60,068 bases of DNA from Bacteroidaceae bacterium (GTDB lineage Bacteria; Bacteroidota; Bacteroidia; Bacteroidales; Bacteroidaceae): contig JAFZWQ010000022.1 of the NCBI GenBank assembly GCA_017617235.1, positions 1 to 60,068 on the forward strand. Reading direction: 5' to 3'. The notes beneath the pieces are model-generated. The model ran no database searches. It was given only the letters and a program-made list of their open reading frames with translations, and was not told the DNA's origin. Of the stretch, positions 3,516-34,477 are shown piece after piece. A program made the position numbers and the translations under genes. Within the stretch, counting starts at the first letter, position 1. Each line of letters begins with the position of its first letter.

Positions 3516-5024
3516 ATGATGTTTTGGGGATTTAGCATAGATGCATGGATAACGATTGCCACGGTGCTGTCGATGTTCTCCGTGCTGCTGTTTACAAAAC
3601 TGCGTGCCGACCTGGTGTTCCTGGGTGCCATCGGTGTCCTGTTTGTAACGGGCGTGCTCGATGCCAAAGAGGCTTTCTCGGGTTTCAGTAGCGCATCGGT
3701 TGTTGTCATTGGTGTGCTGTTTGTTGTAGTTGCGGGTCTGACGTATACCGGCGTGCTGCAATGGATAGTGAAGAACCTGCTGGGGCAACCGAATACGTAC
3801 ACCAAGGCCGTGGTGCGTCTGATGCTGCCCGTGGCTGGACTGAGTTCCTTCTTGAGCAATACGACAGTGGTGGCGCTCTTTGTGAACATCGTCAAGATGT
3901 GGTCGAAGAAACTGAATATCTCGCCCTCGAAGTTACTGATACCATTGAGCTATGCATCGGGCATGGGTGGTGTGTGTACGCTGATTGGTACGCCGCCGAA
4001 CCTGATTATTTCAGGACTCTATACCGACAATACAGGAATATCTATGAACGTGCTGGCGACAACGATACCTGGCTTGTTCTGTCTGTTCATCGGTGTGCTC
4101 AGCATCATCGCCATGCGCCGACTGCTGCCTGACCGCAAGGCTCCTGAATCGGACTCGGAGGACACGGCAGAATATACCGTCGAGATGCTGGTGCCGTCGT
4201 CGAATAAGTTCATTGGCGAGACGCTGGGCTATGCCGGACTGCTCGATGTGAAGGGCGGCAGGCTCATCAAGATGCACCACTTCGACAACGTTGCGGTTCC
4301 CATCGATAAGAACGAGTTCATCATGGGTGGCGACCACCTGGTGTTTGCAGGTAATATCAAGGACATCTTGGAGTTGCAGCACACGCACGGACTGGTGAAG
4401 GGCGCAGAGGTGCTGAATATTGGTCCGAAGACACTCATTTCCACCATCATCATGATAGCGATGGTGACTCTCTCGGCCTTGGGAGTCATGCCACTGTTGC
4501 AGTGCGCTTTTATCGCTGCTGCGGCCATGCTCATCTTCCGCTGCTGTACGCCGAATCAGGCCATGAAGGCCATCAACTGGGACATCCTGATGGTGTTTGC
4601 GGGGTCGGTGGTGCTGGGATTGGCTATTCAGAAGACGGGCATCGCCGAGCGACTGGCCTTCGGCATCCTGGATGTTTGTGGCACGAACCCCATTGTGGTC
4701 ATGACAGCCATCTGCTTTGTGGGCACATTTATAACCGAGTTCATCTCGAACACAGCAGCAGGTGCCATGTTCTTCCCCATCATGTACGAGGCGGCAGAGA
4801 AGCTGGGCTACGAGCCTTACCCCTTCCTCATTGCATTGATGATTAGCGTGAGCAGCAGTTTTGCCACGCCCATTGGCTCACCCACCCACATGCTGGTCTA
4901 TGGACCTGGCGGTTACCGCTTCAGCGACTTCATGCGCATCGGTCTGTTGATGAACCTCATCATCCTGGCCGCCAACATCTTCATCGTCAATATTGTGTAT
5001 CCGTTAACACCGCTAAATCCGTAA
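3516..5024 (+). CDS. SLC13/DASS-type permease with an internal TrkA-C-like domain
   Basis: 502 residues, polytopic. Two membrane halves (about residues 5-205 and 305-500) flank a cytosolic domain of about 90 residues near 215-300 that resembles RCK-C/TrkA-C ligand-binding domains (ETLGYAGL, GDHLVFAG). The first half has SNTTVVALF followed by GTPPNLI, and the second half has the repeat SNTAAGAMFFP followed by GSPTHM. These are the paired substrate and sodium-site loops of the ion transporter superfamily. Members carry sulfate, dicarboxylates or other anions, usually with sodium. Its place between a STAS-kinase and a STAS phosphatase sensor suggests control by that system, but the substrate is not readable. 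Confidence 0.88.
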   Translation: MMFWGFSIDAWITIATVLSMFSVLLFTKLRADLVFLGAIGVLFVTGVLDAKEAFSGFSSASVVVIGVLFVVVAGLTYTGVLQWIVKNLLGQPNTYTKAVVRLMLPVAGLSSFLSNTTVVALFVNIVKMWSKKLNISPSKLLIPLSYASGMGGVCTLIGTPPNLIISGLYTDNTGISMNVLATTIPGLFCLFIGVLSIIAMRRLLPDRKAPESDSEDTAEYTVEMLVPSSNKFIGETLGYAGLLDVKGGRLIKMHHFDNVAVPIDKNEFIMGGDHLVFAGNIKDILELQHTHGLVKGAEVLNIGPKTLISTIIMIAMVTLSALGVMPLLQCAFIAAAAMLIFRCCTPNQAMKAINWDILMVFAGSVVLGLAIQKTGIAERLAFGILDVCGTNPIVVMTAICFVGTFITEFISNTAAGAMFFPIMYEAAEKLGYEPYPFLIALMISVSSSFATPIGSPTHMLVYGPGGYRFSDFMRIGLLMNLIILAANIFIVNIVYPLTPLNP

Positions 5025-5031
5025 ACATCCT

Positions 5032-7308
5032 ATGAGCAAAATATTTAAAAGACTCATCCCTGCATCGTTGCGCAACAAAAGCAGTCTGGCCATCATCGTG
5101 ACTGCGGCCGTGCTGGTAGAGGTAACGACAGCTATACAGTACTACTATGCCCAAGACGGTATCCGCCAGGAGGTAGAGCACCGCGCAGAGAGCGAGTTGA
5201 GGGCGAAAAGCCTGGAGATACGCAACGTGATGGACGTTGTAGAGGTGGCGGTGGAGAACATGGCATGGGCCGTAGAGCAGAGCCTCTCACAGCCGGATTC
5301 CATGGTGGCTGTCACCCAGAAACTGTTGGCTGACAACGAGTACATCGTAGGAAGTGCTGTGGCTTTTGAACCCTATTATTATAAAGATAAGGGACGGCAG
5401 TTCTCGCCTTACACCTACAAGCACGACGGAACCACAACGAGCAAACAGTTGGGCACCGATCAGTACGACTATCACTCCATGGAATGGTACACGGCACCGA
5501 TGGAGTCGGGGCGTGGTCATTGGAGCGAACCCTATTTCGACGAGGGCGGTGGCGAGATGATGATGTCGACCTACAGCTTGCCCATCCATGATGCTGCGGG
5601 CCGGAATGTAGCCATTTTTACTGCTGATGTTTCGCTCGAATGGCTGTCGGAAGTCATCAACGCACGACATATCTATCCATCGTCCTACAACCTGCTCCTG
5701 TCGCGAAAAGGACAAATCATGGTCTGCCCGGAGGACAGCCTGGTGATGCGCAAAAGCATCTGGCAGGCAACAGAAGGGATGGCCGACACCACGGTTGAAT
5801 ACATCAACCGACAGATGATGGCCGGACATAGTGGACAGGCCACCGTCCGCGATGATAATGGTGTGAAGAAATATGTCTTCTACGGCCAGATGGACGGCGA
5901 TATTGGCTGGTCGATGGCCGTGGTGTGTGTTGACAGCGAAATCTATCATAGTTTGAGATGGATGGCAGTCAATATTTCTGTGCTGATGCTTATTGGTCTG
6001 GTATTGCTTGCCTACATCATCTGGCGCGCTGCCCGCAATCTCAACCGCCTGCAGACCGTGAATGCCGAGAAGGAGCGCATAGGCCGTGAACTGCATATTG
6101 CCAGAGCCATACAGATGGGCATGCTGCCTAAGACCTTCCCCACCTATCCCGACCGCGACGATGTACAGCTCTTCGGTTTGCTGACTCCCGCCAAGGAGGT
6201 AGGCGGCGACCTCTTCGACTTCTTCATCCGCGACGAGAAACTCTTTTTCTGCATCGGTGATGTCTCCGGTAAGGGCGTGCCTGCCTCGCTGGTTATGGCC
6301 GTCACCCGTTCTCTGTTCCGCTCCGTCTCTGCCCACGAGCTGATGCCCGACCGCATCGTGGCGTCCATGAACGAGTCGATGGTTGATATGAACGAAACGA
6401 ACATGTTCGTTACGCTATTCGTCGGTGTGCTCGACCTGCCTACGGGTCATATGTACTATTGCAACGCCGGTCACGATGCCCCGTTACTCATAGGAGCAGG
6501 GGTGGGTGCGCTGCCCGTAGAGCCCAACATCCCCGTAGCCGTCATGTCGGGCTGGAAGTTCGTGACGCAGGAGGTGCAAATCTTTACGGATACCACCATC
6601 TTCCTCTATACGGACGGACTGACAGAAGCGGAGGATACAGAACATACACAGTTCAAAATGGAACGTGTGGAAAAAGTGGCCCAACAGGTACTGGACGCAC
6701 ATGAGCAGGAGCCGAAGTTGATTATCCAGCGCATGAGCGATGCTGTTCACAAGTTTGTTGGCAACGCTGAACAGAGCGACGATTTGACGATGCTTGCCAT
6801 ACAGTACATCAACATTCGAAGCAGCGAGAGCCGCCATGCTTGCTTGGATGGCCGAGTCGCGCCGAATGAAGACAAAGTCAAACAGCAACGTGATGTGAAA
6901 TCCATCGTCCTTCCAAACGACACACAGGAGGTGCCACGACTGGCAGCCTTCGTTGATGAGGTGTGCGAGGAGTTGGGCATCAATGCCACCGCCACGGTGC
7001 AGATGAATCTGGCTTTGGAAGAGGCCGTTGTTAATGTAATGGAATATGCTTACCCGAAGAACATAAGTGGTCAGGTGCTTGTCGAGGCAGAAATATCACC
7101 CGACCAGGTGGTATTCACTATCACCGACTCCGGCATTCCTTTCGACCCGACTGCACAAGCCGAGCCAGACATTACACAGTCATTAGAAGAACGCCCCATC
7201 GGAGGACTTGGTATTCATCTCGTGCGGCATATCATGGACGATATACAATATGAACGAAAAGATGACAAGAACATCCTGACACTCATTAAGAAACTTCAAA
7301 AATCGTAA
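5032..7308 (+). CDS. Membrane sensor with PP2C (SpoIIE-type) phosphatase and RsbW-like ATPase in one chain
   Basis: 758 residues. Order: a membrane helix near residues 15-36; an extracytoplasmic region to about 305 that resembles a dCache sensor (EPYFDEGGGEMMMSTYS); a second helix about 310-332; a linker with GRELHIARAIQMGMLP; a PP2C/SpoIIE domain with EVGGDLFDF (about 388), DVSGKGVPASL, CNAGHDAP, YTDGLTEA and SDDLTM (about 581), so the metal-binding aspartates are present; then a GHKL ATPase about 625-758 with NLALEEAVVNVMEYAYP (N box), ITDSGIPFDP and GGLGIHL. PP2C domains of this class dephosphorylate STAS proteins and RsbW-type ATPases phosphorylate or bind them. Having both in one chain makes a self-contained STAS switch. 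The likely client is the STAS protein encoded 22 bases downstream. Confidence 0.93.
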   Translation: MSKIFKRLIPASLRNKSSLAIIVTAAVLVEVTTAIQYYYAQDGIRQEVEHRAESELRAKSLEIRNVMDVVEVAVENMAWAVEQSLSQPDSMVAVTQKLLADNEYIVGSAVAFEPYYYKDKGRQFSPYTYKHDGTTTSKQLGTDQYDYHSMEWYTAPMESGRGHWSEPYFDEGGGEMMMSTYSLPIHDAAGRNVAIFTADVSLEWLSEVINARHIYPSSYNLLLSRKGQIMVCPEDSLVMRKSIWQATEGMADTTVEYINRQMMAGHSGQATVRDDNGVKKYVFYGQMDGDIGWSMAVVCVDSEIYHSLRWMAVNISVLMLIGLVLLAYIIWRAARNLNRLQTVNAEKERIGRELHIARAIQMGMLPKTFPTYPDRDDVQLFGLLTPAKEVGGDLFDFFIRDEKLFFCIGDVSGKGVPASLVMAVTRSLFRSVSAHELMPDRIVASMNESMVDMNETNMFVTLFVGVLDLPTGHMYYCNAGHDAPLLIGAGVGALPVEPNIPVAVMSGWKFVTQEVQIFTDTTIFLYTDGLTEAEDTEHTQFKMERVEKVAQQVLDAHEQEPKLIIQRMSDAVHKFVGNAEQSDDLTMLAIQYINIRSSESRHACLDGRVAPNEDKVKQQRDVKSIVLPNDTQEVPRLAAFVDEVCEELGINATATVQMNLALEEAVVNVMEYAYPKNISGQVLVEAEISPDQVVFTITDSGIPFDPTAQAEPDITQSLEERPIGGLGIHLVRHIMDDIQYERKDDKNILTLIKKLQKS

Positions 7309-21943: not shown

Positions 21944-24832
21944 ATGAGAAACAAACGAATACTGTGGGTTGCAGCGGCTCTTGCGATGGGTCTGTCCTGC
22001 AATGTTCAGGCGCAGACAGCGCTGACGGTGAGTGAGATGACCTCCTTGGCGACGCCCGCTACCGGCAGTGTCGTCTCTATCCACGACCCTTCCGTCGTTT
22101 TCCGAAAGGGCACGTATTACATCTGGGGCTCGCACCTTGGCGTTGCCAGCAGCAAGGACCTAGTAACCTATAACCCGCTGTCAGCCAGCAGCCAGACATT
22201 TGCCAAACCCGACGGCACGCGCTGCGACTTCAAGACCGCCTTCAACGAACAGGTGGTGAAGCAGACGAAGGACTATCGCGGCCAGCTGGTCGATATGCCC
22301 CAGGTGGACGCGGAAGCTTGGTGTTCTTGGTACGCGGAGAATAAGGAGACCTGGATCAACGGCAACATGTGGGCGCCGGATATCATCTACAACGAGACGA
22401 TGAAGCGTTGGTGCATGTATCTGAGCCTGAACGGCGACCGTTGGGCCAGCGTCATCATCCTGCTCACATCGCCCTCCGCCACAGGCCCGTTTACCTATCA
22501 GGGGCCCGTCGTAATGGGCGGTTTCAACGGGGAAAACGGCGCGCCGTCGTACAAGAATAGCGACATGCACCTGGCCCTCGGCTCGCTGTCCAGCCTGCCC
22601 CCACGCTACAACCAGCAGGGAAAGTGGGGAACCTACTGGCCAAACTGCATAGACCCCTGCGTGTTCTATGATGAAGAGGGCGAGCTGTGGATGACCTACG
22701 GCTCGTGGAGCGGCGGCATCTTCATGCTCCGTCTGGACAAGGAAACCGGTCTGCGCGACTATACCTATCAGTACGCTTCCGACTACGACTCGAAGGGCGC
22801 CAACGGCGTCAGCGACCCCTACTTCGGCAAGAAGATAGCCGGTGGATACTACGTCAGCGGCGAAGGCTCGTACATCCAGCACATTGGCCAGTACTACTAT
22901 CTGTTCATGAGTTACGGCGGCTTCGCCCCAGGCGGCTATGATGCCGACGGAAACATACAGGGAGGCTACGAGATGCGAATCTTCCGCTCGAAGAACCCCG
23001 ACGGACCCTACGTCGATGCCGCAGGCAAGTCTGCCCTCTTTGCAGACCGCTGGGTGCTGAACTTCGGCAAAGGCGCCACAGACAATCGCGGCCTGCGACT
23101 GATGGCGGCATACAACCAATGGGGCAACCAGACCGTTGGCGAACGTTCCCAGGGGCACAACTCAGCCTGTCTGGACGACAAAGGCCGCTCGTTCGTCGTG
23201 TATCACACCAAGTTCAACGACGGCACGCTTGGTCATCAGGTTCGCACCCACCAACTCTTCCTCAACGAAAAGGACTGGCTCGTCTGCGCACCCTTCTGCT
23301 ACAGGGGAGAGGAAACTACCGATTCCGCCATAGCCCATACCCCCATTTCCGTCGATGAAATCGTGGGAAATTATCACTTCATGCTCCTGCCTTACGCACA
23401 GAACCAAGGCGAATACGAAGAGGTAGTTCCCACGGAAGTGACCCTGAACGCCGACGGCAGCGTCACAGGAGCCCAGACGGGAACTTGGAAGCAGACGGAC
23501 GGAACCTCGTATCTCACCCTCAAACTCGGCAATACCACCTACTATGGTGTATTCGTCGAACAGGAGGTGAACGGCGCCACCCAGCAGAACTATCAGACCA
23601 CCCCACTGAAGGCATTGGCCTTTACCGCTGTCGCCTCCAACGGCACTCCCGTGTGGGGCTATAAGCTTCGCCCCAAGCATGCGGTGGCCTATAACTATAC
23701 CAACAATACCATTAATGTAAAGTCTGGGGCCACCTACTCCAAGAACATCAGCCTGATGTTTCCCACGACGGATAACACCGTCCTGAAGTGGACCTCGTCG
23801 GAACCCGACGTCATCAGCGAGACGGGAAAATACAATCCACGCGACGAAGTAACCCCAGTAACCCTCACCGTCAACCTGTCCTGCGGCGAATATTTCTGGC
23901 AGCAAAGCTACGATGTGAAGGCACAGAAGAAAACAACCCCCTCTGGCGACTACAGAACAGACCTGAAGGCATACTATAATATGGATGTGCTGCCCTGTTA
24001 CAACGCCTACGATGAAGCGCAGCATACCTACCACAATGCTGCAGGGACGGGCACGAAGCCAGTATTGGAAAGCGATTATGACCGCTTCGGAATGGTCCTG
24101 CATCAGTTCTTTGGCAGTCAGGCCAACTGCTCCTATACCCGTATGAACAATCCGCTCGTGGGCATCGAAGACCTCACGGGATTCTCCGTCAGCCTATGGG
24201 TAAAGCGCAGCGATGCAAACGTGTGGGACGCCCTATGGGGTTTCTTCAACAGCACCTCGTCAACCGCCAAGGGAGCACGTTTCTTCCTTACTGGCAACAG
24301 TTACTTGGGATACAACGCGAACGACACCACTTGGTTCGACATCAATCACCCCGACAAGGGCACATTCAGCGATATCCCTGTGGGCGAGTGGGCTTTCGTT
24401 ACCTTCACAGCAGGCCCTGAGAACGGCATTCGCCTCTATGTGAACGGCACCAACAAATCGCCCCACGCTATGGCTTCGAGCAAAGGCGTGACCAAGGTGA
24501 AGGAATTGCCCTGTGCGGAACTTGTCGATTGTGTCAGGAAATTGAAGTATTTCTATCTGGGACTGGGCTCGTTCTGGGGCTCGGCAGATTGTTATATCGA
24601 TGACGTGCTGATGCACAGCCGCGAACTCTCGGCAACCGACGTCCGCGCTCTGAACACGATGGCCAATCGCGTTACCGACTTTACGAAAAACGGCGATGAA
24701 ACCGACGTTTTTCCCGTATTCATCGAGACGCTACCCCAGCAACGGGGCATCTTTGACCTGCTGGGACGCCGTGTTTCCAGGCCCACCCGAGGTCTGTACA
24801 TCATTAATGGAAAGAAAGCATTAGTTAAATAG
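21944..24832 (+). CDS. Secreted GH43 glycosidase with LamG domain and type-IX-like tail
   Basis: 962 residues from ATG 21944 (signal peptide MRNKRILWVAAALAMGLSCN, cleaved near VQAQ). The five-bladed GH43 domain covers about residues 40-450, with the base Asp in IHDPSVV near 48, the second Asp in CIDPCVFYDEEG and the acid Glu in YYVSGEGSYI. A GH43-C-like beta domain follows (about 465-590), then a linker and a LamG/concanavalin-like domain (about 680-900: DLTGFSVSLWVKR, GEWAFVTFTAG). The end (GIFDLLGRRV, GLYIINGKKALVK) is a short type-IX-like sorting tail. GH43 members act on arabinose- or xylose-containing glycans; arabinan is a reasonable guess. The next gene starts 2 bases after the stop. 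Confidence 0.9.
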   Translation: MRNKRILWVAAALAMGLSCNVQAQTALTVSEMTSLATPATGSVVSIHDPSVVFRKGTYYIWGSHLGVASSKDLVTYNPLSASSQTFAKPDGTRCDFKTAFNEQVVKQTKDYRGQLVDMPQVDAEAWCSWYAENKETWINGNMWAPDIIYNETMKRWCMYLSLNGDRWASVIILLTSPSATGPFTYQGPVVMGGFNGENGAPSYKNSDMHLALGSLSSLPPRYNQQGKWGTYWPNCIDPCVFYDEEGELWMTYGSWSGGIFMLRLDKETGLRDYTYQYASDYDSKGANGVSDPYFGKKIAGGYYVSGEGSYIQHIGQYYYLFMSYGGFAPGGYDADGNIQGGYEMRIFRSKNPDGPYVDAAGKSALFADRWVLNFGKGATDNRGLRLMAAYNQWGNQTVGERSQGHNSACLDDKGRSFVVYHTKFNDGTLGHQVRTHQLFLNEKDWLVCAPFCYRGEETTDSAIAHTPISVDEIVGNYHFMLLPYAQNQGEYEEVVPTEVTLNADGSVTGAQTGTWKQTDGTSYLTLKLGNTTYYGVFVEQEVNGATQQNYQTTPLKALAFTAVASNGTPVWGYKLRPKHAVAYNYTNNTINVKSGATYSKNISLMFPTTDNTVLKWTSSEPDVISETGKYNPRDEVTPVTLTVNLSCGEYFWQQSYDVKAQKKTTPSGDYRTDLKAYYNMDVLPCYNAYDEAQHTYHNAAGTGTKPVLESDYDRFGMVLHQFFGSQANCSYTRMNNPLVGIEDLTGFSVSLWVKRSDANVWDALWGFFNSTSSTAKGARFFLTGNSYLGYNANDTTWFDINHPDKGTFSDIPVGEWAFVTFTAGPENGIRLYVNGTNKSPHAMASSKGVTKVKELPCAELVDCVRKLKYFYLGLGSFWGSADCYIDDVLMHSRELSATDVRALNTMANRVTDFTKNGDETDVFPVFIETLPQQRGIFDLLGRRVSRPTRGLYIINGKKALVK

Positions 24833-24834
24833 GT

Positions 24835-26355
24835 ATGTTACGTAAGATTCGAACAACACTTGCCGTCCTCTTCTGGATTGGGGTGACGCTGCTCTTCCTA
24901 GACTTTACGGGAACGGCTCAGCGCTATCTCGCCTGGATGGCCAAAGTGCAGTTCCTGCCCGCTGTGCTGGCCCTGAATGTGGTTGTGGTGGTAGGCCTCG
25001 TCCTGCTCACCCTGTTGTTTGGCCGCATCTATTGCTCCGTCATCTGCCCGTTAGGCGTAATGCAGGACTTCATCGCCTGGGTGAGCAAACGCAAACTGTT
25101 CCGCAAGAACAAGAAGGCGAAGTATGCCAACAAGTACAGCTACTCGCCAACCAAGCGCATCCTGCGGGCACTGGTATTGCTCGTGTTCCTTGTCTTGATG
25201 ATAGCCGGATTCAACACGCTGGCCATCCTCATCGCTCCCTACAGCGCCTACGGCCGCATCGCCACGAACCTGATGCAGCCTCTATACCTTTGGGCGAACA
25301 ATGGTTTGGCAGCCATCGCCGAACATTACGATTCCTACCTATTCTATTCTGTCGATGTGTGGTTGCGTTCCGTCCTCTCACTCGGAATTGCTGCAGGAAC
25401 CCTACTTATCGTGGGCATTCTAGCCTGGAGAGGCGGCAGAACGTATTGCAACACCATCTGCCCTGTGGGTACGATACTGGGCTACATCAGTCACTTCTCC
25501 CTGTTTGGTCCCGTCTTTGATAAGGACAAGTGCAACGGTTGCCGTCTCTGCGAGCGGAACTGTAAGGCCAGTTGCATCAATATTGGAGACCACCATGTGG
25601 ATATGACGCGTTGCGTGATGTGTGGCGACTGCATGTCGCTCTGTCCGCAAGGCGCCCTGCGATTTGGAAACAGGGCTCATAAGCCCCATAAGGCCCATAA
25701 GCCTCATGAGCCTAATGAGACCAATAAACCGGATGAGGACCGTCGTGCTTTCATGAAAGGCTTGGCATTGGTGGCTACGGGGGCTGCGGCAAATGCTGTA
25801 GCAAAAACCGTAGATGGCGGACTGGCCACGATTGAGGACAAGGTGACTCCTGAACGGCAGACACGCCTTGTTCCTCCTGGTTCGCTCTCCTTGGAGCATT
25901 TTACCCAACATTGCACAGCCTGCCAGCTGTGCATCGCCAACTGCCCTAATCAGGTGTTGCGTCCCAGCGACGATTTGGAACACTTGATGCAACCCCAGAT
26001 GCAGTTCGAACAGGGATACTGCAGACCCGAATGCAACCGCTGTTCGCAGGTTTGCCCAACGGGAGCCATCCGTCCCATTACCATCGAGGAGAAAACAGCC
26101 CAGCAGATTGGTCATGCCGTTTGGGTGAAGGACAATTGTCTGTGTGTCACAGAAGGAATCACGTGTGGCCATTGTGCCAGCCATTGCCCAACGGGAGCCA
26201 TCGAGATGGTGCCGCTGGACGATAGCGATGAGATTTGGATACCCGCCGTCAACGAATCGGTTTGCATCGGTTGTGGCGCCTGCGAGAATCTGTGTCCGGC
26301 ACGTCCCTTCAGCGCCATCTATGTCGAGGGCTACGAAACCCACCGGGAGTTATAA
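24835..26355 (+). CDS. NapH-NapG-like quinol dehydrogenase fusion with an internal Tat motif
   Basis: 506 residues in two joined halves. Residues 1-280 resemble NapH: four or five membrane helices, two CxxxCP motifs (GRIYCSVICPLG, GRTYCNTICPVG) and two [4Fe-4S] motifs (CNGCRLCERNC, CVMCGDCMSLCP). A low-complexity His/Pro linker follows, then DRRAFMKGLALVATGAAA near residue 302, a twin-arginine pattern followed by a hydrophobic stretch. Residues about 345-506 resemble NapG, with four more cluster motifs (CTACQLCIANCP, CNRCSQVCP, CGHCASHCP, CIGCGACENLCP). In Nap systems, NapH oxidises quinol and passes electrons through NapG to a periplasmic reductase. The genes for a Tat-type reductase and TatAC follow directly, which supports export of the second half. 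The topology is inferred. Confidence 0.88.
   Translation: MLRKIRTTLAVLFWIGVTLLFLDFTGTAQRYLAWMAKVQFLPAVLALNVVVVVGLVLLTLLFGRIYCSVICPLGVMQDFIAWVSKRKLFRKNKKAKYANKYSYSPTKRILRALVLLVFLVLMIAGFNTLAILIAPYSAYGRIATNLMQPLYLWANNGLAAIAEHYDSYLFYSVDVWLRSVLSLGIAAGTLLIVGILAWRGGRTYCNTICPVGTILGYISHFSLFGPVFDKDKCNGCRLCERNCKASCINIGDHHVDMTRCVMCGDCMSLCPQGALRFGNRAHKPHKAHKPHEPNETNKPDEDRRAFMKGLALVATGAAANAVAKTVDGGLATIEDKVTPERQTRLVPPGSLSLEHFTQHCTACQLCIANCPNQVLRPSDDLEHLMQPQMQFEQGYCRPECNRCSQVCPTGAIRPITIEEKTAQQIGHAVWVKDNCLCVTEGITCGHCASHCPTGAIEMVPLDDSDEIWIPAVNESVCIGCGACENLCPARPFSAIYVEGYETHREL
25673..25735 (+). repeat. Degenerate 9-nt repeat encoding a His/Pro/Glu linker
   Basis: About seven units of the form CATAAGCCC / CATGAGCCT run in frame between the two halves of the NapH-NapG-like protein, giving a linker rich in HKP, HEP and NKP. 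Similar CATAAG/CATAGG-type runs occur in the noncoding stretch at 40150-40195. Confidence 0.6.
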
Positions 26356-26364
26356 TTGACAATT

Positions 26365-27765
26365 ATGGAAAGAAGAGATTTCATCAAGATACTGGGAACA
26401 GGAGCTGCAACAGCGACTCTGGCTGGTTGTGGACTGAAAAAGAAACAGGACTTCGACCCGCTGGGACACCACACGGGTGAGGTTCCGACGGACAAGATGA
26501 CCTATCGCGACAATCCCACAACGGGCGACCATGTTTCTCTGTTGGGTTACGGCATGATGCGTCTGCCCAACAAGCCCCAGAAGCCATCGAGCGACGGAAC
26601 ACCTGCTCCCGAGGAAATCGACCAGAAGGAAGTGAACCGCCTGGTGAAGTATGCCTTGGACCATGGGGTGAACTATTTCGATACGAGCCCAGCCTACTGT
26701 CGAGGCGAGAGCGAGGCCAGTACGGGAACAGCTCTCGTGGCCAGCGGATATCCGCGCGACAAGTACTACATCGCCACTAAGCTTTCGAACTTCTCGCCTG
26801 AACAATGGTCGTATCAGGAAGGTGTGAAGATGTTCGAGAACTCGCTCCGTTACCTGCAGACCGACTACATCGACTATCTGCTGTTGCATGGTGTCGGCAT
26901 GGGAGGCATGGATGTCCTGAACGGACGTTACATGGACAATGGACTGCTCGACTATCTCCTGAAGAAACGCGAGGAAGGCGTAATCCGAAACCTGGGTTTC
27001 TCGTATCACGGCGAGATAGAGGTCTTCGACTATCTGTTGGCGAACCACGACAAGTACCATTGGGACTTTGTGCAGATACAGATGAACTATGTGGACTGGC
27101 ACTTGGCAAACGAAACGAACAAAGCCAATACCGATGCCGAGTATCTATATAATGAACTTGACAAACGCGGCATTCCGGCAGTCATCATGGAACCCTTGTT
27201 GGGTGGGCGACTGGTGAAGATGCCCAACCACATCGTGGCAACCCTAAAGAGCAAACGACCCGAGGACAGCGTAGCCTCGTGGGCCTTCCGCTATGCAGGC
27301 ACCAAGCCTCGCATCCTCACCGTCCTGTCGGGCATGACCTATATGGAACACTTGCAGGACAATTTGCGTACTTATAGTCCTCTGGAACCATTGAGTGAAG
27401 AGGAACAGACGTGGCTCGAGAACGAGGTGGCAAACCTCTATGTATCGTACCCCACCATACCCTGTAACGACTGCAAGTATTGCATGCCCTGTCCCTATGG
27501 TATCAACATCCCAGCCATATTGTTGCACTACAACAAGTGTGTGAACGAAGGCAATGTGCCAGAGAGTCAGCAGGCCGAGAATTACAGAAAAGCACGTAAG
27601 GCCTTCCTCATCGGTTACGACCGTTCGGTGCCCCGTTTGCGGCAGGCCAACCACTGCATTGGCTGTGGGCGTTGCGTCGAACATTGTCCCCAGAACATCA
27701 ACATTCCACGCGAGATGAAGCGCATAGATAACTTTGTAGAGAAACTTAAACAAAATACATTATGA
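26365..27765 (+). CDS. Tat-exported lipoprotein aldo/keto reductase with C-terminal [4Fe-4S] domain
   Basis: 466 residues; ATG 26365 is preferred over the TTG at 26356. The N-terminus MERRDFIKILGTGAATATLAGC joins a twin-arginine motif to a lipobox, predicting a folded protein exported by Tat and lipidated outside the inner membrane. The aldo/keto reductase barrel has an intact tetrad: Asp in FDTSPAY, Tyr in the same motif, Lys in YIATKLS and His in YLLLHG. The nicotinamide-nucleotide segment (VLSGMTYMEHLQDNL) is also present. The C-terminus adds CNDCKYCMPCPYGINIP and CIGCGRCVEHCPQ. It sits between the NapH-NapG-like gene (9 bases) and tatA (4-base overlap). Likely an extracytoplasmic reductase fed by that neighbour; the substrate is unknown. 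Confidence 0.9.
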   Translation: MERRDFIKILGTGAATATLAGCGLKKKQDFDPLGHHTGEVPTDKMTYRDNPTTGDHVSLLGYGMMRLPNKPQKPSSDGTPAPEEIDQKEVNRLVKYALDHGVNYFDTSPAYCRGESEASTGTALVASGYPRDKYYIATKLSNFSPEQWSYQEGVKMFENSLRYLQTDYIDYLLLHGVGMGGMDVLNGRYMDNGLLDYLLKKREEGVIRNLGFSYHGEIEVFDYLLANHDKYHWDFVQIQMNYVDWHLANETNKANTDAEYLYNELDKRGIPAVIMEPLLGGRLVKMPNHIVATLKSKRPEDSVASWAFRYAGTKPRILTVLSGMTYMEHLQDNLRTYSPLEPLSEEEQTWLENEVANLYVSYPTIPCNDCKYCMPCPYGINIPAILLHYNKCVNEGNVPESQQAENYRKARKAFLIGYDRSVPRLRQANHCIGCGRCVEHCPQNINIPREMKRIDNFVEKLKQNTL

Positions 27766-27974
27766 CACAATTACTTTTTCTTGGCGGCATCGGCATTCAG
27801 GAGCTGCTAATCGTTTTACTCATCGTACTTCTCCTTTATGGAGGCAAGAAGGTTCCCGAAATGATGCGTGGACTTGGTCAGGGCGTCAAGGCTTTCAAGG
27901 ATGGCATGAATGATACCGTTTCTGCCATCGAGGAGAATAAAGAAGAAAAGAAGGAAGAGGAAAAGAAAGAATGA
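27762..27974 (+). CDS. tatA: Twin-arginine translocase subunit TatA
   Basis: 70 residues: a short N-terminal segment, a membrane helix (ELLIVLLIVLLLYGGKKVPEM), an amphipathic helix (MMRGLGQGVKAFKDGM) and an acidic/lysine-rich tail. This is the TatA layout; the FG of many TatA proteins reads YG here. It overlaps the reductase stop by 4 bases (ATGA) and tatC by 4 bases, so all are translationally coupled. There is no separate tatB, as in other minimal TatAC systems, so this subunit probably serves both roles. Confidence 0.93.
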   Translation: MTQLLFLGGIGIQELLIVLLIVLLLYGGKKVPEMMRGLGQGVKAFKDGMNDTVSAIEENKEEKKEEEKKE

Positions 27975-28654
27975 CCTTTTGGGATCATCTCGATGAGTTG
28001 AGAGGCGTGATTTTCAAAAGTTTGTTGGTCACGCTGGTATGTATGGTGGTGGCTTTCGCCTTCAAGGAGGAGGTGTTTGCAATAATCCTGTATCCCAAGG
28101 ACGAATCCCTGCAACTGATAAATACGGCTGTAACGGGCCAGTTTGTTACCCACATGATGGTTTCGTTCTATGCGGGTTTGATTGCAGCTATGCCCTACAT
28201 CCTTTATCAACTCTTCCACTTCATCTCACCTGCCCTCTATCAACAGGAACGTCGACTGGCTATCCGCTTGGTCTTGAGCGGTTATGTTATGTTCATCGTT
28301 GGTGTCTTGTTCTCCTACTTTGTCATTTTCCCCTTTACCCTTCGTTTCCTCGGTGGGTATCAGGTGAGTGAAGAGGTGAATAATCTCATCTCGCTGGAGA
28401 GTTACATTGATACGATGGTAATGCTCAGCCTGATGTTGGGTGTGGTATTTGAAATGCCTGTAGTCAGTTGGCTCTTGGGCCGTTTTGGTCTGCTGACAGC
28501 CACTCGTATGCGGACGTATCGACGAGGCGCCATCCTGGGAATCGTCATCGTGTCCGCCATCATCACTCCCACAAGCGATGCTTTCACCCTTTTACTCGTC
28601 TCTGTACCTGTTTACCTGTTGTATGAGATAAGTATTTTGGTGGTTCGAAAATGA
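27971..28654 (+). CDS. tatC: Twin-arginine translocase subunit TatC
   Basis: 227 residues with six predicted membrane helices. The N-terminal receptor region FWDHLDELRGVIFKSLL matches the TatC signature (xFxHLxELR) that recognises the twin-arginine signal, with the key Glu present. The loop after helix 2 (FHFISPALYQQERR) is also typical. It overlaps tatA by 4 bases and the beta-mannosidase gene by 4 bases. The mannosidase has an ordinary Sec signal, so that last overlap probably reflects operon packing rather than Tat dependence. Confidence 0.96.
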   Translation: MTFWDHLDELRGVIFKSLLVTLVCMVVAFAFKEEVFAIILYPKDESLQLINTAVTGQFVTHMMVSFYAGLIAAMPYILYQLFHFISPALYQQERRLAIRLVLSGYVMFIVGVLFSYFVIFPFTLRFLGGYQVSEEVNNLISLESYIDTMVMLSLMLGVVFEMPVVSWLLGRFGLLTATRMRTYRRGAILGIVIVSAIITPTSDAFTLLLVSVPVYLLYEISILVVRK

Positions 28655-31269
28655 CAAGCGTGAATCGTTTTCTCGTCAGCATCCTGATAGCCATTCCGGC
28701 TTTCTCCTTATTTGCTCAGGAGTCTGTCACGCTCGATTCTGGTTGGATTTTCCGTCAGGAGCGTTTCCAGAACTGGCATCTTGCCACTGTGCCAGGAAAC
28801 GTGCACACCGACCTGATGGCCATCGGTAGCATAGAGGACCCGTACTTCGGGTTGAACGAACGCAACGTACAGTGGATAGATAAGGAGGATTGGCTCTACG
28901 ACCTTCATTTCGAAGTTACCGAAGCCCAGCAGCAGCGGGCCCGTCGCGAACTTACGTTCTATGGTCTTGACACTTACGCAGATGTCTATCTGAATGACTC
29001 GCTCATCTTGAAGGCCGATAACATGTTCCGCACATGGCAGGCCGATGTTACCCGTCTCACACATGTTGGAGCAAACCATCTGCGTGTTTACCTGCATTCA
29101 CCTATTAAAGTGGATATGCCCAAGTGGGAAGCGCATCCGAATGAGTATTTTGCGGATAACGATCAAAGCCAGAACGGGGGACTATTGGACCGTCGGCTTT
29201 CGCCCTTCATCCGCAAGGCCGGTTATCACTATGGATGGGATTGGGGACCACGTCTTGTTACTTCTGGTATCTGGCGCCCTGTGGTGTTTACCGCGTGGGA
29301 CGACGTTGTTATCCGCGATGTTTTCGTGGAGCAGCAGGAGGTGAACCGCAAGCGAGCTGTCATCCAACATCACGTGACCATCGAGGCAGACCGCGATGCT
29401 ATGGTCGCCATTACCGTTACGGACTCAGCCACTCAGCGCCGCCTGATTTCCCAAAAGGTGAGCCTGCACGCTGGCACCAACGAATTCACCCTGCCTTATA
29501 CCATTAACAATCCGCATCTGTGGTGGAGTAATGGCTTGGGCGAACCGTATATGTACACACTGCAGACCAGCGTGAAGTCCGATGAGACCCATAAGCCCTT
29601 TGAGACTTCTCTGTTGACAAAGGCCGGTCTTCGCGACATAAAGCTTCATCGCGAGCCCGATGCCGATGGAAAGGGCGAGGTTTTCTTCTTTACTTTGAAC
29701 GGCGAGAAGGTGTTCATGAAGGGGGCTAACTACATTCCATGTGATATTTTCCTGCCACGTGTCACAGATTCCATTTATCGTCGTACCATTGCTGATGCCG
29801 TTGCGGTGAATATGAATATGCTGCGTGTGTGGGGAGGTGGTGTCTATGAGGATGACCGCTTTTATGAATTGTGCGACGAAAACGGCATCCTCGTATGGCA
29901 GGACTTCATGTTTGCCTGCTCCATGTACCCTGCCGACAAGCAGTTCCTAGAGAACATCCGTCAGGAAGCCATCGACAATGTGCGTCGACTGCGTAATCAT
30001 CCCTGCATCGCCCTTTGGTGTGGTAACAACGAGGTTCTGGATGCCTGGTCCAACTGGGGATGGAAATCGCGTTCCAAGCAAATGGGTAGCGATGTGGCCG
30101 AGCGTTTGTGGGCGGAACACAAAGCCATCTTCTTCAAGACCCTGCCCGATGTGGTTTGTGAGTATGCCCCGCAAACTCCGTATCATCCCTCATCGCCCTT
30201 TGCAGGAGAGGATGGGCGTCGCGATTTCACACGTGGCGATTACCACTATTGGGAAGTGTGGCACGGATGTGAACCCATCAGCGAATACAACAAGGTACGA
30301 GCACGCTTCTTCAGTGAATATGGCATGCAGAGTTTCCCTGAACTGTCCACAGTGAAGCGTTTCTGTCCCGATAGCAAGGAGTGGAGCATCACCTCCGACG
30401 TGATGATGTCTCACCAGCGTGGTGGCGCTCATGCCAACGAACTCATCGAGATTTATTTGAACACGGAATACGGACGTCCACAAGGTTTCGACACATTGCT
30501 TTATGTAGGACAACTCATGCAGGGCGATGCCATGAAGACAGCAGTGGAGGCGCATCGTCGCGACAAAGGCTACTGCTGGGGGTCGCTGTTGTGGCAAATC
30601 AACGACTGCTGGCCTGTAGCTTCGTGGAGCACCCGCGATTACTATGGTCGATGGAAGGCTGCTCATTACATGTTGCGTTCTGCTATGGCCGATATCCTGG
30701 TGTCCCCCATCCAGCGGAAGGACAGCATGCTTTGCATAAATCTTGTCAATGACCGCCTGACACTTGTTAATGGAACGCTTACCGTCGGGGTTTATACGGC
30801 TAGCAAACGTTGCTTTACCACTACACAGCGCGTAAAGGTTGCAGCCAACAGCGCCACCGATGTCTGGAAGATGCCCACGGTTCAGCTGTTAGCAAAGGCC
30901 GGCATCGCAGCCAATGAGGCTATCATTCATGTCGAATTTGCTCCCGACAACAAGGGCAAGATACCGTCTGCAGCCCAAGACTTCTATACCAACAACTACA
31001 TACTTGTCTATCCCAAGGATCTTAGGTTACAGCCTGCAAATGTTGAGGTTAAGGTAGAAGATGAATGCTTAAAGGTAACAACCGACCACTACGCTCGCGG
31101 AATCTTCCTCAGCCTTGAAGGAGATTCAGATCATCATTTCTCGGATAATTTCTTCGACCTGCTGCCTGGTGAGGAACGCACCGTTTCGCTTGCCACTTCA
31201 CTCCCCCCGTCTGAAGTGCAAAAGCGCCTGCGGCTTATGGTTTATAGCGATATATCGATTCCTGAATAA
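28651..31269 (+). CDS. GH2 beta-mannosidase
   Basis: 872 residues with a Sec signal peptide (VNRFLVSILIAIPAFSLFAQ), so it acts in the periplasm or beyond. Domain order is that of GH2 mannosidases: sugar-binding jelly roll (about 25-190; LATVPGNVHTDLMA), Ig-like domain, then the TIM barrel with the acid/base Glu in WCGNNEVLDAWSNWGW near residue 463 and the nucleophile Glu in FFSEYGMQSFP near 555. YYGRWKAAHYM is also typical of beta-mannosidases. It trims beta-linked mannose from mannans or N-glycan cores and would work with the GH92 alpha-mannosidase at 54354. Its start overlaps the tatC stop. Confidence 0.93.
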   Translation: MTSVNRFLVSILIAIPAFSLFAQESVTLDSGWIFRQERFQNWHLATVPGNVHTDLMAIGSIEDPYFGLNERNVQWIDKEDWLYDLHFEVTEAQQQRARRELTFYGLDTYADVYLNDSLILKADNMFRTWQADVTRLTHVGANHLRVYLHSPIKVDMPKWEAHPNEYFADNDQSQNGGLLDRRLSPFIRKAGYHYGWDWGPRLVTSGIWRPVVFTAWDDVVIRDVFVEQQEVNRKRAVIQHHVTIEADRDAMVAITVTDSATQRRLISQKVSLHAGTNEFTLPYTINNPHLWWSNGLGEPYMYTLQTSVKSDETHKPFETSLLTKAGLRDIKLHREPDADGKGEVFFFTLNGEKVFMKGANYIPCDIFLPRVTDSIYRRTIADAVAVNMNMLRVWGGGVYEDDRFYELCDENGILVWQDFMFACSMYPADKQFLENIRQEAIDNVRRLRNHPCIALWCGNNEVLDAWSNWGWKSRSKQMGSDVAERLWAEHKAIFFKTLPDVVCEYAPQTPYHPSSPFAGEDGRRDFTRGDYHYWEVWHGCEPISEYNKVRARFFSEYGMQSFPELSTVKRFCPDSKEWSITSDVMMSHQRGGAHANELIEIYLNTEYGRPQGFDTLLYVGQLMQGDAMKTAVEAHRRDKGYCWGSLLWQINDCWPVASWSTRDYYGRWKAAHYMLRSAMADILVSPIQRKDSMLCINLVNDRLTLVNGTLTVGVYTASKRCFTTTQRVKVAANSATDVWKMPTVQLLAKAGIAANEAIIHVEFAPDNKGKIPSAAQDFYTNNYILVYPKDLRLQPANVEVKVEDECLKVTTDHYARGIFLSLEGDSDHHFSDNFFDLLPGEERTVSLATSLPPSEVQKRLRLMVYSDISIPE

Positions 31270-31658: not shown

Positions 31659-32966
31659 TTAGTACATAGCAACGATTGCTTCGTACAGTTCCTGCTTGCC
31701 ACTGGTTTGCTTGGGCTCGCCCACCTTCTTACCATATTCGTAAGCCTCTTCGAGGGTCATCTTGCCCTCTTCGAACTTCTTACCTTCGCCCTTGTCGAAA
31801 CTTGCGTAGCGCTCGGCAACCATCTTCTGGATGGGGCTCTTCTCCAACAGTTCGGCTGCGCTGAGCAGAGCCTTGGCCATAGCGTCCATACCGCTGATGT
31901 GAGCAATGAAGATGTCCTCGAGGTCGGTGCTGTTACGACGAGTCTTAGCATCGAAGTTTGTGCCACCAGTACCCAGACCACCGTTGCGGATAATCTGCAT
32001 CCAAGCCTGTACGAGTTCGAAGTGGTCGATGGGGAACTGGTCGGTATCCCAACCATTCTGGTAGTCGCCGCGGTTAGCGTCGATGCTCCCCAGCATACCA
32101 GCGTCTACTGCACAAGCCAATTCGTGTTCGAAAGTGTGGCCAGCCAGTGTAGCATGGTTAACTTCGATATTTACCTTGAAGTCCTTGTCCAGATTGTGGG
32201 CCTTCAGGAAGCCTACAACGGTTTCGGTATCAACGTCATACTGGTGCTTCGAAGGCTCCATGGGCTTGGGCTCGATGAGGAAAGTACCCTTGAATCCCTT
32301 GGCACGAGCGTAGTCGCGAGCCATAGTCAACATGGTGGCCATGTGCTCTTTCTCACGCTTCATGTCGGTGTTCAGGAGGCTCATGTAACCTTCGCGACCA
32401 CCCCAGAATACATAGTTCTCACCACCCAGTTCGATGGTAGCATCTATGGCGTTCTTAATCTGTACGATAGCACGTGCCACAACGTCGAAGTCGGGGTTGG
32501 TGCTGGCACCGTTCATGTAGCGAGCGTTGCCGAATACGTTAGCGGTACCCCACAGCAGTTTGATGCCAGTCTCGGCCTGTTTCTGCTTCAGGTAAGCAAC
32601 TACTTCCTTCAGGTTCTTCTCGTACTCTTCTACGGTAGCGGCCTCTGTGCAGAGGTCAACATCATGGAAGCAATAGTAAGGGATACCCATCTTTTGCATG
32701 AACTCGAATCCAGCGTCAACCTTCTGCTTGGCAATTGTTACAAGGTCGTTGCCCTGATTCCAAGGGAATGTCTTGGTGCCGCCACCAAACTGATCGCCGC
32801 CCTCAGCGCACAATGTGTGCCACCAAGCCATAGCGAAACGCAGCCAGTCCTTCATCTTCTTACCCATCACCACGCGCTCGGGATCGTAATAGTGGAAAGC
32901 CATGGGGTTCTTGCTCTCTGCTCCCTCGAAGGGAATCTTACCGATGTTTGCAAAATACTCTTTCAT
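31659..32966 (-). CDS. xylA: Xylose isomerase
   Basis: 435 residues, the long class of xylose isomerase. It interconverts D-xylose and D-xylulose in the cytosol. Motifs: YYCFHDVDL near residue 99 with the catalytic His, [16 protein letters not shown] near 185, [16 protein letters not shown] near 230 and [20 protein letters not shown] near 260, which supply the metal-binding Glu, Asp and His residues. It is the second gene after xylB, 47 bases downstream, in one minus-strand operon that ends at the terminator at 31606-31640. No xylose transporter adjoins. Confidence 0.97.
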
Positions 32967-33013
32967 AATTGTTTTGTTTATTTGGTTTATAAATAATTAA
33001 TTCCTTGTTCATA

Positions 33014-34477
33014 TTAAAGACAACTTTTCCAGTTCTCGTAAGCCTCGCGATAGGCTTCAGGTTTCTTGGGGGCGATGGTATTGACGATGCGCAAGGTGGA
33101 CATGGCTTCCTCGACATTGCGATAGATGCCTGCACCGATACCAGCTCCGCGGGCAGCTCCGGCAGCACCGTCTGTGTCACACAGTTCGATGGTAGCACCC
33201 GTGGTATCTGCAATGGCCTGACGGAACAGGGGACTCAAGAATAGGTTGGCCTGTCCTGCGCGGATTTTGCGAATGTCCATTCCCATACCCTGCATCACTT
33301 CCATGCCGTAGGCAAAAGCAAAGGCGATGCCCTCCTGTTCAGCACGCAGCAAATGGGCACGGGTATGAGTGTTGAAGTTCAGTCCGTGTATGCTGCATCC
33401 AGGTGCTTGGTTTCCCAGCATGCGTTCGCTGCCATTGCCAAAGGGCAGCACAGCAAGTCCTTCGGCACCAATGGGAGTCTTCATGGCTTCCTCGTTCATT
33501 GCGCTGTACGATAGGTCGGAGGATACATTGCGATGCATCCAGCTATTCAGACAGCCCGTTCCGTTGATGCAGAGCAGAACACCCAGACGTGGGTCTTCAG
33601 CACTATGATTTACATGGGCAAAGGTGTTGACACGACTCTGTGGGTCGTAGTTGATTTTGTCCAGAATGCCGTATACTACACCGCTAGTACCTGCTGTTGC
33701 AGCAATCTCACCTGGATTCATTACACCCAGCGAAAGGGCATTGTTGGGTTGGTCACCACCACGATAGGTAACGGGTGTGCCGGCCTTCAGACCCAGTTCC
33801 TGGGCCACTTCGCTGCGCAGCTGACCTTGGTGACCAAAGGTGGGTACTATGTCGCAGGGCGTGGTGGGGTCGATGCCGTAGTATTCGATAAGGCGGTTGG
33901 CAATGCTATTCTCCTTGAAATCCCAAAGCATACCTTCGGACAGACCGCTCATGGTGGTCTGCATCTCACCCGTTAGTCGCATGGCGATGTAGTCGCCGGG
34001 CAACATAAAACGGAATACCTTATTAAATAGTTCGGGCTGGTTCTCACGAACCCATGCTAGTTTAGATGCTGTGAAATTTCCAGGCGAATTCAGCAGATGG
34101 CTCAGACAGTAGTCGCTGCCCAAATCCTGCATAGCCTTCTCTCCATAGGGAACGGCTCGGCTATCGCACCAAATGATGGAGGGGCGCAGGGGCTTGCCTG
34201 CTTTATCTACAACCACCAGTCCGTGCATCTGATAACTGATACCGATGGCTTCCACGTCCTCTGGACGGGCTCCGGCTTGTTGCATCACTTCGGCTGAGGC
34301 TTGCTTCAAGTTTTGCCACCACATTTCGGGATCTTGTTCAGCCCAACCCACTTGAGGGGCGGCGATGGGCATCTCACTCTTGGGATAAAAAGCCGATGCG
34401 GCAATTTTTCCCGTCTGTGTTTCCACCAGGGCAGCTTTCACACTACTGCTGCCAATGTCGTATCCAAGTAAGTACAT
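33014..34477 (-). CDS. xylB: Xylulokinase
   Basis: 487 residues, an FGGY-family sugar kinase that makes xylulose 5-phosphate for the pentose phosphate pathway. The phosphate-1 motif is YDIGSSSVKAALVE at the N-terminus, the substrate region SYQMHGLVVVDK near residue 78 fits xylulokinase, and GGDQPNNALSLGVMNPGE near 240 and TDGAAGAARGAGIGAG near 455 are family signatures. It heads the xylBA operon; a -7 box lies 30 bases before its start. Confidence 0.94.
   Translation of the reverse strand: MYLLGYDIGSSSVKAALVETQTGKIAASAFYPKSEMPIAAPQVGWAEQDPEMWWQNLKQASAEVMQQAGARPEDVEAIGISYQMHGLVVVDKAGKPLRPSIIWCDSRAVPYGEKAMQDLGSDYCLSHLLNSPGNFTASKLAWVRENQPELFNKVFRFMLPGDYIAMRLTGEMQTTMSGLSEGMLWDFKENSIANRLIEYYGIDPTTPCDIVPTFGHQGQLRSEVAQELGLKAGTPVTYRGGDQPNNALSLGVMNPGEIAATAGTSGVVYGILDKINYDPQSRVNTFAHVNHSAEDPRLGVLLCINGTGCLNSWMHRNVSSDLSYSAMNEEAMKTPIGAEGLAVLPFGNGSERMLGNQAPGCSIHGLNFNTHTRAHLLRAEQEGIAFAFAYGMEVMQGMGMDIRKIRAGQANLFLSPLFRQAIADTTGATIELCDTDGAAGAARGAGIGAGIYRNVEEAMSTLRIVNTIAPKKPEAYREAYENWKSCL

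Follow-up and report, generated by a model that had tools for sequence, protein, structure and literature searches.

The DNA analyzed here, referred to as the window, is the 60,068-nucleotide contig JAFZWQ010000022.1 (contig 44 in the 50-contig, 2.54-Mb assembly GCA_017617235.1, which is 85.5% complete) from a member of the Bacteroidaceae. Positions 24835 to 28654 encode a NapH-NapG-like fusion protein, an aldo/keto reductase (AKR) carrying a twin-arginine translocation (Tat) signal, and the Tat components TatA and TatC. The fusion and the AKR were found to be a conserved unit, recurring beyond chance in samples of the family and the order and among the best AKR matches. They are deduced with high confidence to be functional partners, and their conserved signals make it likely that both are exported. 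Together they may form a membrane-bound electron transfer module running from menaquinol through the fusion to the exported AKR and on to a carbonyl-type compound, a complete scheme whose chances we judge to be even. The locus has the following features.

24835..26355, + strand: NapH-NapG-like fusion, 506 amino acids; hydrophobic segments with two CX3CP motifs, and an internal twin-arginine segment preceded by two [4Fe-4S] motifs and followed by four
25741..25803, + strand: the internal twin-arginine segment RRAFMKGLALVATGAAANAVA, weakly hydrophobic (TIGR01409 below cutoff; conservation of the arginine pair)
26365..27765, + strand: AKR with Tat signal, lipobox, and two C-terminal [4Fe-4S] motifs, 466 amino acids (Pfam, TIGR01409, predicted structure, alignment)
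27762..27974, + strand: tatA (TatA_B_E, 48.6 bits)
27971..28654, + strand: tatC (TatC, 225.4 bits), the sole TatC match in the incomplete genome assembly

These coordinates agree with a preliminary description of the locus as four closely spaced genes ending in tatAC. The fusion and the AKR (start ATG at 26365) are separated by 9 bases, and 4-base overlaps join the AKR gene to tatA and tatA to tatC.

Conservation of the fusion-AKR pair

The pair was sought in 121 evenly drawn genomes of the family, the window's own among them (family sample), 149 genomes of the order (order sample), and 296 genomes of the phylum (phylum sample). The best 80 of 590 confirmed AKR matches were in addition taken as named loci, on which all counts out of 80 rest; their AKR frames were taken stop to stop with start codons unchecked. 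At thresholds of E ≤1e-60 for the AKR and E ≤1e-40 for the fusion, the family sample contained the AKR in 84 genomes, the fusion in 88, and TatC in 101. Fusion and AKR co-occurred in 82 genomes and were no more than 3 kb apart in 80 of the 84 AKR genomes. Counted by copies, a fusion lay within 3 kb of 83 of the 112 AKR copies (76 upstream, 7 downstream). Of the 149 order-sample genomes, 31 gave AKR matches, and 26 of these were classed as exported type, G416, G420, G455, G537, and G544 being dropped because the N-terminal part was missing. The fusion was within 300 bases of the AKR in 24 of the 26; the exceptions were G431, where it lies on another contig, and G560, where the distance is 2.7 kb. 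Among the named loci, the fusion was directly upstream of the AKR in 78 of 80, downstream in L163, and not present in the available stretch of L117. Carriers of the pair include a laboratory Bacteroides, B. xylanisolvens XB1A (L106). The partnership of a quinol-dehydrogenase-like fusion with an AKR, as given in the preliminary description, is therefore upheld in the family sample, the order sample, and the named loci.

Among the 296 genomes of the phylum sample, the AKR was found only in the one that contains the window, and its absence from the rest is soft because at most five candidates per genome were scored. The named relatives closest to the window were metagenome assemblies of Prevotellaceae and Bacteroidales. 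Of the 80 named AKR records, two carry titles from outside the Bacteroidales (L115, Paenibacillus; L163, Kapaibacterium), which may reflect mislabeled or mixed assemblies or transfer.

The NapH-NapG-like fusion

NapH models cover the fusion to residue 284 and NapG models cover residues 296 to 488, with scores well below the curated NCBIfam cutoffs (NapG, 75.8 bits against 269; NapH, 66.5 bits against 213.05). The window and 19 of the 29 other fusion loci of the family sample (30 loci in all) were aligned in 20 rows. The CX3CP cysteines C67/C71 and C205/C209 were invariant in this alignment, as were all 24 ligand cysteines of the two plus four [4Fe-4S] motifs, in keeping with the six motifs noted earlier.

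Beyond what had been described, the fusion contains its own RRAFMK motif at residue 303, scoring 15.5 bits against TIGR01409 (cutoff of 16.7, not reached). Among the 74 named fusions with 450 or more residues, this internal segment could be anchored in 71 (L098, L103, and L110 were unplaced and uncounted); it has RR in 67 and KR in 4 (L102, L139, L147, and L160). The Kyte-Doolittle hydropathy of the segment after the arginines was 1.38 in the window, with a median of 0.93 in the 20 rows, compared to a median of 2.2 for whichever of the first two membrane segments was less hydrophobic in the same rows. In G093 the NapH and NapG halves are separate frames (L171), and in G414 the two halves match on different contigs.

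The exported-type iron-sulfur AKR

The AKR was assigned to PF00248 (124.3 bits; cutoff of 24) together with Fer4 domains by Pfam. Its N terminus, MERRDFIKILGTGAATATLAGC (MERRDFIKILG...LAGC), matched TIGR01409 with 18.0 bits (cutoff of 16.7). The catalytic-type tetrad is D106/Y111/K139/H175, and the cluster cysteines are residues 367, 370, 373, and 376 and residues 431, 434, 437, and 441. All 80 named AKRs had both arginines of the signal, the lipobox cysteine, and the tetrad; six of the cluster cysteines were kept in all 80 and the other two in 79, with one gap. The second gene had been described as a Tat- and lipobox-bearing AKR with two cluster motifs and an intact tetrad, and these data bear that out in full.

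The predicted structure (25 rows; mean pLDDT of 83.4, with residues 1 to 35 below 50) matched AKRs in Foldseek, the best match being L-galactose dehydrogenase (7ezl; E = 1.7e-15). Residues S322, G323, M324, H329, and N333 were also invariant in 80 of 80. They lie in a loop (residues 322 to 333), aligned to the end of L-galactose dehydrogenase, that we take to be the nicotinamide-holding loop.

The window genome has a second exported-type iron-sulfur AKR on contig C19 (L173, region 4612-6434, minus strand), which is 50% identical and has no lipobox; an FMN_bind protein is encoded 9 bases away, and no fusion was found in the 12 kb available. In L137 (11396-12538) and L159 (3650-4792), a shorter second AKR directly follows the exported-type one, its match beginning past the signal region.

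Linkage to tatAC and other Tat substrates

Of the 84 family genomes with an AKR, 41 have a tatC gene no farther than 12 kb from it (30 downstream, 11 upstream); in the named loci, tatC was within 7 kb in 28 of 80. The order fusion-AKR-tatA-tatC, without other members of the set, occurred in 14 of the 80, so that the pair, rather than the whole quartet reported at first, is what relatives generally conserve. On an AKR tree (FastTree, 81 rows), linkage was scored for 59 rows (30 without tatC, 24 with it downstream, and 5 upstream), 22 being omitted for too short a flank. Linkage changed 10 to 11 times, at least 5 of these changes being forced by starred branches, which makes a single chance event hard to maintain. 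The linkage is thus recurrent, though many loci are without it. In the family sample, TatC was present in 83 AKR genomes and missing from 1, compared to 18 with and 19 without among the others (Fisher test, 4e-11, uncorrected for kinship).

Five other N-terminal twin-arginine candidates were found in the window genome: a metallophosphoesterase, two Gfo/Idh oxidoreductases, the second exported-type AKR, and one lipoprotein (L012, 604-1554, minus strand; SRREFF start, no Pfam match). The list is a lower bound because it was obtained with one model and one pattern from an incomplete assembly; of six TIGR01409 matches, that on C12 (L007, 12.8 bits) was not counted. The RRxFxK pattern matched 16 times in the genome versus 21 times for the backward pattern and is therefore no evidence by itself, and the cases used were in frame, at the N terminus or in a linker, and followed by a hydrophobic stretch. 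An exporter dedicated to the pair was rejected because of these five candidates. The earlier view that the exporter is encoded with its client holds as a recurrent linkage; other candidate substrates, which could make the linkage look fortuitous, do exist, yet the roughly 10 changes of linkage speak against one chance event. Among the relatives of the Gfo/Idh oxidoreductases are enzymes exported with NADP bound, for example, glucose-fructose oxidoreductase, and hence the absence of free NADPH outside the cytoplasm does not by itself demand that electrons arrive through clusters.

DUF362 proteins as alternative partners

All 26 examined fusions that are not beside an AKR adjoin a DUF362 gene whose product starts with a twin-arginine motif. 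These comprised six loci of the family sample (L177 to L182) and 20 of the order sample (L187 to L206), the latter being one from each of 18 of the 41 genomes with a fusion and no exported-type AKR plus extra copies in G517 and G518, which have both. The other 23 of the 41 genomes, the full-length family loci of G024 (C69) and G088, and several partial or single-half matches stand outside this set. Three DUF362 assignments were confirmed by Pfam, and the others were made with a model built from the first six. DUF362 belongs to the same Pfam clan as the lactate racemase family (PMC11770544). In L180, tatA and tatC precede the DUF362 gene in the same direction.

A tree of 103 fusions (77 AKR side, 26 DUF362 side; FastTree) contained a single change of partner with a support of 81, to be read with a warning for long branches. 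Mainly because of the DUF362 partners and this single change, the fusion is considered to be an electron module with exchangeable exported clients, and the best reading of the family is that of a quinol dehydrogenase module whose partner in the window is the AKR.

Accessory genes and flavoproteins

Three kinds of gene were found to be accessory to the pair. In the named loci, DUF1893 was near it in 21 of 80, an ECF-S-like membrane protein (a match below Pfam's cutoff) in 18, and a BtuB-like TonB receptor in 9. The complete run of fusion, AKR, DUF1893, receptor, ECF-S-like protein, tatA, and tatC was seen in L120 and L144. Of the 121 genomes of the family sample, 35 had DUF1893, and 34 of these also had the AKR; the ECF-like protein was found in 45, of which 42 had the AKR. 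At the distances used, 8 of 36 DUF1893 matches and 14 of 47 ECF-like matches were away from AKR, fusion, and TatC, while ECF-like genes also lay in the same run as a DUF362-side fusion in L177, L178, L179, and L203. Neither DUF1893 nor an ECF-S-like protein was found in the 85.5% complete window genome. Riboswitches were considered as a clue to the substrate and dropped, since no Rfam riboswitch reached the gathering score in 18 related loci or the window, the single match being a tRNA.

DUF1893 and the TonB receptor share one open frame in L166 (978-3323), L167 (165-2510), L168 (3455-5902, minus strand), L169 (2448-4793, minus strand), and L170 (921-3209). The frames of L166 and L169 have a signal-peptide-like stretch between the two parts, after about 150 residues, such that an outer membrane receptor is preceded by a cytosolic-type domain ahead of its signal.

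A two-electron converter is needed between one-electron clusters and an AKR that uses hydride, and flavoproteins of three families were found near AKRs. A signal-bearing flavodoxin, confirmed by Pfam, was present in 4 of the 80 named loci (L104, L111, L120, and L149) and beside the further AKR of L220; that of L120 may belong to a neighboring operon with ordinary AKR matches. Three genomes encode an FMN_bind protein no more than 40 bases from an AKR, namely, the window's own (on C19, confirmed by Pfam), G110, and G010 (L172 and L208, by similarity). An FMN_red protein with a Tat signal lies between fusion and AKR in genome G443 (L226, 3607-4506, minus strand). Weaker FMN_red-like matches in L114 and L130 have no signal start, and an FMN_bind match in L139 is 3.9 kb away. 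These small numbers are suggestive of exported flavoproteins as an electron bridge and are offered as a lead.

Neighboring genes

The tight spacing, which the preliminary description had confined to the four genes, extends to a glycosidase gene on either side.

21944..24832, + strand: arabinanase-like gene of family GH43, its end lying 2 bases ahead of the fusion (Pfam; next to the fusion in three of the 80 named loci, each of them one of the nearest relatives)
28651..31269, + strand: mannosidase-like gene of family GH2, sharing 4 bases with tatC (Pfam; not found in the 80 named loci)

By this spacing the unit could consist of six genes. A sugar reductase, as had been proposed and as the glycosidases would suggest, was rejected: of the 80 named loci, GH43 adjoins the fusion in L087, L088, and L089 alone, and GH2 was found in none. 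These three belong to the four nearest named relatives, and the remaining one, L086, breaks off inside the fusion. Downstream of the GH2 gene, on the opposite strand, genes for a xylose-isomerase-like TIM barrel and an FGGY sugar kinase are adjacent (31659-34477, minus strand).

Comparison with known systems

The AKR resembles the AKR superfamily, including L-galactose dehydrogenase (7ezl) and AKR11C1 (1ynp), in its fold and tetrad and is unlike it in having a Tat signal, a lipobox, and two C-terminal [4Fe-4S] motifs. There is presumably a likeness also to the COG1453 iron-sulfur aldo/keto reductases, in which an AKR domain is followed by a ferredoxin-like end. The known members of COG1453 are cytoplasmic and uncharacterized. 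A clostridial member is listed in a proteomics table (PMC5395762).

The fusion shares with NapGH, a quinol dehydrogenase where characterized (PMC5449189), the CX3CP motifs, the two plus four cluster motifs, and a Tat-type signal ahead of the NapG half. Unlike NapGH, it is one chain scoring below the NapG and NapH cutoffs, and no nitrate reductase gene was found among its neighbors. The same source (Tooke et al. 2017) describes a polyferredoxin of the delta proteobacterium MLMS-1, a NapH-NapG fusion with internal twin arginines that needs both Sec and Tat and in which a more hydrophobic fifth segment led to more Sec insertion. The window fusion likewise has twin arginines before a weakly hydrophobic last membrane segment with clusters on both sides, and the low hydropathy of this segment is the property tied to the Sec-to-Tat handover in the MLMS-1 protein (PMC5449189). 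The part consulted describes no AKR, DUF362, or tat partner for the MLMS-1 protein, whereas here a partner enzyme and tatAC are linked (PMC5449189). Distinctive features are the exported-type iron-sulfur AKR as a partner and its constancy in the sampled Bacteroidales, together with its exchange for DUF362 and the linkage to tatAC. No description of this pairing in Bacteroidales was found in the literature searched, which did not cover most subscription journals.

Proposed mechanism and alternatives

The following mechanism is proposed on the basis of gene partnership, signals, motifs, and fold. Sec would insert the NapH half of the fusion, and the internal twin-arginine segment would hand the NapG half, with its four [4Fe-4S] clusters, over to Tat, which would place it on the outer face of the inner membrane. 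For its part, the AKR would fold in the cytoplasm with its clusters and perhaps a nicotinamide, be exported by Tat, and then receive a lipid anchor. At the outer face, the fusion would relay electrons from menaquinol via its clusters to the AKR, which would reduce a carbonyl-type compound, the class of substrate that we infer, outside the cytoplasm. The step from one-electron clusters to two-electron chemistry may be made by a flavoprotein in some species. That electrons pass between fusion and AKR is considered probable; that they flow from quinol to substrate is put forward tentatively, at slightly less than even confidence. Several points weigh against the proposal. No AKR is known to accept electrons from a cluster, and no flavin domain was found in the AKR by Pfam. 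None of the solved chains listed (48 in one sequence search; the best 60 of 116 in another) has its best-matching stretch over the iron-sulfur end, and no structural match listed covers it. One AKR genome, G090 (84% complete), shows no TatC. Finally, 29 of the 112 AKR copies, including the second exported-type AKR of the window genome, had no fusion within 3 kb; many are second, less similar copies and some are at contig ends, and it follows that the AKR can exist without a linked fusion.

Electrons could run the other way, from an alcohol or sugar oxidized by the AKR outside the cytoplasm through the clusters and the fusion to menaquinone. The conserved features are compatible with both directions, and L-galactose dehydrogenases are among the best structural matches of the AKR; the characterized role of NapGH as a quinol dehydrogenase (PMC5449189) argues to the contrary, and this direction is regarded as unlikely. 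More doubtful still is a specific form of the menaquinol scheme, in which the AKR holds a trapped NAD(P) that is re-reduced in place by menaquinol electrons arriving via the fusion clusters, with an exported flavoprotein as a further carrier in some species. The fusion would then serve as an interchangeable power supply for at least two exported client families (AKR and DUF362).

The pair might instead serve micronutrient uptake, with the BtuB-like receptor importing a compound, the AKR altering its redox state, the ECF-S-like protein carrying it inward, and DUF1893 acting inside. The accessory counts, the complete runs of L120 and L144, and the near confinement of DUF1893 to AKR genomes in the family sample (34 of 35) fit this scheme, but it is improbable given that DUF1893 and the ECF-S-like protein were both not found in the incomplete window genome, that the ECF match is under Pfam's cutoff, and that no riboswitch was detected in the loci searched. 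Glucose-fructose oxidoreductase recycles its tightly bound NADP on its own substrates. An AKR exported with bound NADP could do the same, its clusters being structural and the fusion merely sharing the operon, and the invariant residues of the presumed nicotinamide loop and the two Tat-signal Gfo/Idh oxidoreductases of the window genome are in line with this. It is nevertheless deemed very improbable, as near-constant adjacency with one fusion lineage asks for more than shared transcription.

Implications

Many Bacteroidales have the pair, apparently linking the membrane quinone pool to an exported enzyme, with tat genes adjoining in part. If the proposed electron transfer from menaquinol to the AKR is correct, common gut and rumen bacteria would own a respiratory branch that carries out carbonyl chemistry beyond the cytoplasm, in a space that lacks free NADPH. 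A testable function would be offered for two uncharacterized groups, the exported iron-sulfur AKRs and the Tat-signal DUF362 proteins, and one reason would be provided why Bacteroidales bearing the pair keep Tat. One quinol dehydrogenase family divided by its partner enzyme is, moreover, a usable case of modular electron transfer.

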